Origin: Verrucomicrobiota bacterium
GTDB lineage: Bacteria; Verrucomicrobiota; Verrucomicrobiia; Limisphaerales; JACDHS01
Direction of reading: 5' to 3'
DNA: 38,055 nt
Assembly (NCBI GenBank): GCA_013820875.1
Contig: JACDHS010000040.1
Span: 1-38,055 of the forward strand
Shown here: positions 4,474-38,055 of the stretch, in pieces
Position numbering within the stretch: the stretch's first letter is position 1
Layout of the letters: the number at the start of each line of letters is the position of its first letter
The notes under the pieces: generated by a model
Told to the model about the DNA's origin: nothing
What the model saw: only the letters and a program-made list of their open reading frames with translations
The model's database searches: none
Translations under genes and position numbers: made by a program

Positions 4474-4576
4474 GATGGAGTGGTGGAGTGGTGGAGTGGT
4501 GGAGTGATGGAGTGATGGAGTGATGGAGTGATGGAGTGATGGAGTGATGGAGTGATGGAGTGATGGAGTGATGGAG
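4474..4576. repeat. 8-bp microsatellite, about 13 copies
   Basis: A perfect tandem array with an eight-base period: a partial copy, then three copies of TGGTGGAG (4481-4504), then nine copies of TGATGGAG (4505-4576). The two versions differ by one base and are segregated in blocks, as expected from recent slippage. It lies about 110 bases upstream of the start codon of the permease on the minus strand, so copy number could change promoter spacing or leader length. A minus-strand frame through it encodes a Ser/His/Pro repeat, but that is a by-product of the period and not a credible protein. Confidence 0.95.
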
Positions 4577-30716: not shown

Positions 30717-30859
30717 GTAGCGCAGGTTTTTAACCGTTTTTAACCTGCTGTATCGCGGATTTTCAATCCGCTTGCCGTAGGATCTGTGAATGCGTGCGGC
30801 AGTTCTCACGACTTGCGGATTGAAAATTCGCGATACAGCAGACTAAAAGTCCGCGCTAC
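30717..30859. repeat. Long imperfect inverted repeat
   Basis: The inner arms are 27 bases each (30745-30771 and 30815-30841), complementary with one mismatch, around a 43-base loop. The outer arms GTAGCGC/GCGCTAC (30717-30723 and 30853-30859) continue the pairing after an unpaired stretch. The left side also holds a smaller hairpin GCAGGTT/AACCTGC (30722-30728 and 30742-30748), which competes with the long pairing. There is no open frame for a transposase, so this could be a nonautonomous element or a large RNA/cruciform structure. Confidence 0.85.
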
Positions 30860-30867
30860 GACGTTGC

Positions 30868-30979
30868 AAAACGGCCTGAACGTGTGCAGACGGTTTCCGG
30901 ATGATCCGAAAATGGCCTGGAACGTGTGCGGACGGTTTCCGGATGATCTGAAAACGGCCTGGAACCTATCCAGACTACG
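30868..30979. repeat. 42-bp tandem repeat, about 2.7 copies
   Basis: Unit 1 (30868-30908, 41 bases) and unit 2 (30909-30950, 42 bases) share AAAA(C/T)GGCCTG and the block GACGGTTTCCGGATGAT; unit 3 (from 30951) begins the same way and then degenerates. Differences between units are few, so the duplication is fairly recent. It directly abuts the inverted repeat. The period is the same as that of the array at the end of the window, but the sequences are unrelated. Confidence 0.85.
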
Positions 30980-37642: not shown

Positions 37643-37787
37643 TCACCCGCAGGGGTGGGGGCAGTTATCCCCACAAAAGGATTGGAATATCACTGAGACA
37701 ACAATGCGGATTGAGCTCCGTTGGAAATTCTCCGCGCCCCAATGGGGAGCGATATTCGAAGCAAAAACCTGGTTTTGGGCGCAAAAT
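37643..37787. other. Spacer after the propeller gene
   Basis: No gene. The stretch from the propeller stop codon to the repeat array contains no hairpin with a T-run that I can see. A minus-strand frame (37665-38045) starts inside the repeat array and ends here; it is judged a by-product of the repeat. Confidence 0.4.
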
Positions 37788-38055
37788 GACAAAAAAAGGG
37801 ATTTTTGACACCCAACACACCTTGCTGAAGGTCAAAAAAGGCTTTTTGCGACCCCCGCAAGGTTTGCGAACAGTCAAAAAAGGGATTTTGGGGAGTGCGC
37901 AAAGCTTGCGGACAGTCAAAAAACCCTTTTTCGACACCCAACAAAGCTTGCGGAGTGTCAAAAAAGGCTTTTTGCGACCCTCGCAAGGTTTGCGGACAGT
38001 CAAAAAAGGGATTTTGAGGAGTGCGCAAAGCTTGCTGACAGTCAAAAAACCCTTT
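37788..38055. repeat. 42-bp tandem array with 126-bp higher-order period
   Basis: Units begin at GTCAAAAAA at 37831, 37873, 37915, 37957, 37999 and 38041, exactly 42 bases apart; a diverged 43-base unit begins at 37788. Three unit types (A: GGCTTTTTGCG; B: GGGATTTTG; C: CCCTTTTT) repeat in order A-B-C-A-B-C, so the higher-order period is 126. The two A copies differ at two bases and the two B copies at two. Each unit has an A6-N3-T-tract dyad and a GCAA-N3-TTGC dyad. The array is cut by the window edge. Minus-strand frames remain open because 42 is divisible by three. Confidence 0.95.

Follow-up and report, generated by a model that had tools for sequence, protein, structure and literature searches.

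Dispersed intergenic tandem arrays with a common 41–43-bp unit in a Verrucomicrobiota genome and its sister genus

The tandem array at the right end of the window, i.e., the whole 38,055-nucleotide stretch of DNA analysed here, belongs to a dispersed, non-coding element that occupies intergenic DNA in about 14–15 copies, and sequence comparison indicates that at least 27 mutually unrelated sequence families of arrays have a unit length of 41–43 bp in common. In our best reading, these arrays are mobile satellites without coding function, and their unit is held to approximately four helical turns either by the process that amplifies them or by DNA architecture. In its more specific form, to which we assign roughly even odds (a probability of about 0.5), the dispersed element consists of two fixed ends and a variable number of ~42-bp hairpin-forming modules, and it would be repeatedly made and spread by a process that is strict about length.

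The array at the window's right end and its dispersed copies

The array and its surroundings comprise the following features, together with a second array of the same unit length further upstream:

30868–30965, + strand: further array of 42-bp units, 2.4 copies, AAAACGGCCTGGAACGTGTGCAGACGGTTTCCGGATGATCCG (Tandem Repeats Finder; family linkage)
37761–37788, + strand: left end of the dispersed element, GCAAAAACCTGGTTTTGGGCGCAAAATG (13 genome places with at most 3 mismatches; aligned flanks)
37789–37830, + strand: degenerate first 42-bp unit, ACAAAAAAA / ACAAAAAAAGGGATTTTTGACACCCAACACACCTTGCTGAAG (unit comparison)
37831–37956, + strand: first 126-bp block of three 42-bp units, classes A-B-C (Tandem Repeats Finder and unit comparison)
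37957–38055, + strand: second A-B-C block, truncated where the contig stops (Tandem Repeats Finder; comparison with other copies)

The GTCAAAAAA anchors lie at 37831, 37873, 37915, 37957, 37999 and 38041, exactly 42 bp apart. For this array, Tandem Repeats Finder (TRF) reports a period of 42 with 72% matches and a period of 126 with 2.0 copies and 92% matches; the A-B-C-A-B-C order of six units described in the sequence-only reading is therefore real, and the 126-base block holds as the higher-order unit. The conserved start and the T-tract three bases downstream of the anchors are likewise present as described. The GCAA-N3-TTGC dyad had been attributed to every unit, but it is exact only in classes A and B; in class C it reads ACAA...TTGC. 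The array is interrupted by the end of the contig at 38055, and on comparison with two other copies (C72 and C167) we predict about two further units and the right end, CCCCAAAATCCCTTTTTTGCCGGTGCGCARACCCT, beyond that position.

The array at 30868–30965 is unrelated to the end array and belongs to the same family as the arrays at L125:16008 and L130:16876. The spacer in which it lies also holds a long inverted repeat, CTGTATCGCGGATTTTCAATCCGC...GCGGATTGAAAATTCGCGATACAGCAG (30735–30845). An 8-bp tandem array (GATGGAGT × 12.9) occupies positions 4474–4576 of the window.

A search of the genome for the anchored 42-mer, using the pattern GTCAAAAAANNNTTT, returned 49 matches versus 1 for the reversed control, far beyond chance. 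BLAST with the window array found about 15 loci, 75–95% alike over the query and set in unrelated flanks. Both ends of the element recur genome-wide, with 13 matches to the left end and 14 true matches to the right end. The left end is common to other copies, and the DNA upstream of it is unrelated in most of them; one subgroup has about 170 bp of additional left-side similarity. A sequence of the form GCGCAA...AAAAAAGGGATTTT is imperfectly common to the left end and the reverse complement of the right end. The lengths from end anchor to end anchor are 87, 172, 214, 298, 339/340 and 382 bp, which are 42-bp steps apart from one indel, and copy number thus changes between loci by whole units (multiples of 42), as in the VNTR class. 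Across loci, units in the same position are 79% identical; identity is 56% where the positions differ and 67% between units separated by three places in a single locus. Therefore, the ABCABC array was dispersed as a whole.

The element resembles MITEs in being short, non-coding and dispersed, with ends that may be similar and inverted, and differs from them in its variable internal tandem array. Moreover, no clean target-site duplication was seen when the aligned flanks of the copies were inspected by eye, and neither an empty site nor a mobilising gene, such as a matching transposase, was identified for it. Across all collections searched, the family is confined to the source genome: its exact pattern is absent from 84,980 species, a set that may omit records near the source genome, and of 292 further genomes in the order only 4 gave matches, all weak and short. 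A plasmid origin was rejected by search and a viral origin by exact-pattern search. The proposal of a unique centromere or terminus site is unsupported because this family alone has ~15 copies and dozens of others exist beside it. A CRISPR array, already dismissed in the sequence-only reading, is rejected here as well, since there are no unique spacers and the variable parts recur at each third unit and between loci.

The same reading had also raised a decaying repetitive gene, i.e., a minus-strand coding sequence with a 14-residue repeat, and a 126-aa open frame does exist on that strand. However, several frames on both strands have few or no stops by composition alone, the frame is not conserved across copies and is broken by stops in several of them, and no Pfam match above a cut-off was obtained. 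Other families, moreover, use 41- and 43-bp units. Because of these sister families, the broken frames and the absent domains, coding is excluded, and we leave it next to no probability.

The unit length across the genome and the sister genus

In an unbiased 568-kb sample of the source genome, TRF assigned a 41–43-bp unit to almost all of the longer arrays. We tallied arrays with TRF at permissive settings, keeping those of at least 80 bp with a period of at least 20, in 565 kb from the source genome and in 266 kb from a sister genus (G001). The unit is 41–43 bp, or a multiple of that length, in 29 of 32 arrays in the source genome (565 kb) and in 11 of 12 in the sister genus (266 kb), compared with at most 3 of 13 in the controls (1.5 Mb). 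The controls were other genomes of the order, with G017 left out, and 80 named loci, mostly from Planctomycetota, Verrucomicrobiota and Acidobacteriota; one of the 123-bp control arrays has no 41–43-bp substructure. In G017, from a different family of the same order, 126 kb yielded a single 42-bp array (L240:1331–1476), with a TGTTCCGGAACA palindrome. The named loci closest to a protein encoded in the window, at 68% identity, belong to a Pedosphaerales MAG and to a second Verrucomicrobiota MAG.

A lag-identity scan made without TRF agrees with the tally, with lags of 41, 42 and 43 and their multiples prominent in the source genome and lags of 41 and 42 in the sister genus; we interpret its flat baseline as runs of N. 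Other intergenic DNA, in which decayed arrays might persist, gives weak peaks at lag 42 in the source genome, where the signal is confounded by leftover coding period 3, and at lags 41–42 in the sister genus. Array density in the source genome is ~50 per Mb, which extrapolates to roughly 280 arrays in 5.7 Mb. Contigs often start or stop inside arrays (L141, L152, L155, L157, L162, L170 and the window end), so short-read assemblies probably undercount them.

Linkage by common 12-mers sorted the arrays, mostly from the source species and the sister genus, into 27 families, with A and B merged. The consensus sequences of 8 source-genome families have no match in the sister genus, which carries its own 41-bp arrays. 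Unit lengths of bacterial minisatellites normally vary by locus. Here, one narrow length recurs in dozens of unrelated sequences and in a sister genus that has none of them, which indicates that the conserved quantity is the length itself. The mycobacterial MIRUs provide a point of reference, being related in sequence and varying in unit length between classes. The present arrays are like MIRU-VNTR loci in that they are dispersed intergenic minisatellites that change by whole units, but their sequences are unrelated and they have a single unit length in common.

A second large family has 41+41+42-bp units and AAAAAAGTCTTTTTTG and GTCAGGACTGAC dyads (L119, L120, L122, L123, L124 and L033). In a 43-bp family (GGTTGGCCAACGAGGTGTC...; L143, L162, L173 and L125:3745), a left arm of ~150 bp is conserved and the left end carries an inverted unit.

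A single length could also have been inherited, if all families descended from one ancestral 41–42-bp array whose sequence has since become saturated while its length was kept by concerted evolution. Satellites generally keep a stable unit length, and an A5-6-N3-T5-6 core, recognised by eye, is common to families A, B and L140/L147. However, pairwise alignments of family units score hardly above those of shuffled units (none of 406 pairs reached a score of 30), and the GC content of the arrays spans 0.29 to 0.68. We therefore consider such common descent quite unlikely.

Helical rhythm, hairpins and gene context

The sequence-only reading had equated 42 bp with about four turns of DNA, placing the A-tracts on the same face. 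Several observations bear on this idea. (i) Identity by lag, averaged over family units, shows side peaks near 10–11, 20–22, 31 and 51–53. (ii) The fourth harmonic of W/S (AT versus GC) composition is raised over block shuffles and amounts to 1.94 versus 1.12 in random intergenic segments (p 0.00125; post hoc), with a periodogram peak at 10.3 bp. This rhythm rests mainly on the source genome; the 10 families of the sister genus, taken by themselves, give a lower value of 1.59. (iii) A wedge model, checked against a phased A-tract control, predicts strong intrinsic curvature for the window array, whose end-to-end ratio is 0.71; shuffles give 0.88, and the median over the window is 0.93. By the same model, significant curvature is confined to about 11 of the 27 families. 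(iv) Units of exactly 41 bp are prevalent in the sister genus, which at 10.5 bp per turn speaks against the units lining up strictly on one face; a 10.3-bp rhythm would fit 41 bp. Thus, the idea of helical phasing is strengthened by the fact that arrays of unrelated sequence have both a 41–43-bp unit and a 10.3-bp W/S rhythm in common, whereas strict same-face phasing does not hold as a general rule, because many arrays are 41 bp and would drift at 10.5 bp per turn and because A-tract curvature appears in only some families.

These signals could reflect DNA architecture, in which the arrays would be helically phased binding or wrapping sites of an abundant, sequence-tolerant nucleoid protein and selection would hold the unit at four turns. 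The common unit of unrelated sequences, the W/S rhythm, the curvature predicted for the window array and some other families, and the intergenic position of the arrays without gene-orientation bias all favour this explanation. On the other hand, with 10.5 bp per turn each unit of the many 41-bp arrays would be out of phase by a further ~34 degrees, only part of the families are curved, the rhythm was recognised post hoc, and there are no arrays of 31 or 52 bp, although these would be equally phased. On balance, selection for DNA architecture seems to us possible but rather unlikely.

Self-complementarity is widespread among the units: 40 of 60 arrays reach z > 2 against shuffles, with a mean z of 2.5 (same-family arrays are not independent). 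Hairpins are predicted on both strands, with about 18 of 27 families at a z of −2 or below, and the window array folded as single-stranded DNA has a z of −8.15. Several families are not hairpin-like (e.g., L143, L163 and L151:12083). In the window-array family the dyads are conserved, yet only two of about 20 pairs covary, and covariation as proof of a hairpin in this family was set aside as weak. By a simple home-made gene caller, 51 of the 58 arrays lie clear of any predicted gene. The genes flanking the arrays (n = 32) are convergent in 9 cases, divergent in 9 and co-directional in 14, near the expectation from spacer length and without orientation bias.

Strong predicted hairpins might suggest a structured RNA or a transcription signal, such as a terminator, a stability element or a small-RNA array. 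However, folding occurs on both strands, there is no gene-orientation bias, and covariation is scant; furthermore, the window array has no match in Rfam, and no terminator or promoter site was found in it. An RNA or transcription signal is thus very improbable. If the arrays act at all, they would act at the DNA level, through bending, wrapping or hairpins, and not as protein or oriented RNA signals.

Related systems and possible origin of the arrays

The closest known systems are the REP/BIME elements, which are multiplied by RAYTs (REP-associated tyrosine transposases), and the LTRR (long tandemly repeated repetitive sequences) of heterocystous cyanobacteria. Like BIMEs, for which a rolling-circle birth has been proposed (PMC2817692), the present arrays consist of extragenic palindromic units in high copy that are tandem, dispersed and species-specific (PMC2817692, PMC3733652). 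GTAG/CGTC REPs are known, Verrucomicrobia included (PMC3733652), and Y1 transposases occur in the source genome. However, there are just 7 Y1 matches for at least 16 source-genome families, and an array is present at 1 of the 7 Y1 loci, the same as in random windows (9%). A cognate RAYT between two inverted repeat copies was not found; three RAYT-like Y1 genes (L197, L198 and L199, around 1501–1845) have their own REP-like inverted flanks of 17, 30 and 57 bp, which lie outside all array families. The GTAG and CGTC tags are absent from the family A unit consensus and were seen by eye in only a few other families. The arrays also differ in that their units run head-to-tail rather than alternating and in that many unrelated families have one 41–43-bp period. 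Multiplication by RAYTs accordingly has little to recommend it as the source of these arrays.

LTRR arrays likewise have short units, are intergenic and genome-dispersed, and have hairpin potential, but one sequence family has been described (PMC2408588), in contrast to the at least 27 unrelated families with one unit length here. In the text consulted, no description of BIMEs (PMC2817692), GTAG/CGTC REPs (PMC3733652) or LTRR (PMC2408588) speaks of many families of unrelated sequence that keep to a single unit length. More generally, we found no description in the literature of a fixed 41–43-bp period, nor of such a pattern common to a sister genus with different sequences.

Returning to the preferred reading of mobile, length-restricted satellites, we propose that short hairpin-bearing segments may repeatedly become tandem arrays, which would then be spread by a mechanism that is blind to sequence and strict about length. 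Candidate mechanisms are rolling-circle copying of a ~42-nt circle and hairpin template switching, and approximately four helical turns would be the length tolerated by the mechanism itself or by the later packing of the DNA. It is not obvious why either mode of birth would fail to give other lengths, such as 31 or 52 bp.

In a broader and more tentative formulation, which we consider less likely than not, a process that ignores sequence but measures DNA by a ruler of ~four helical turns may create or maintain hundreds of intergenic arrays in this bacterial family. Their sequences would turn over completely between genera while the 41–43-bp unit stays fixed, and the underlying system, either chromatin-like wrapping or a minicircle-based amplification, would be previously undescribed. 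The conservation of length poses a testable question, namely whether the unit length is set by the making of the arrays or by the folding of the chromosome; whichever proves right, something would be learned about a bacterial order that is still uncultured.
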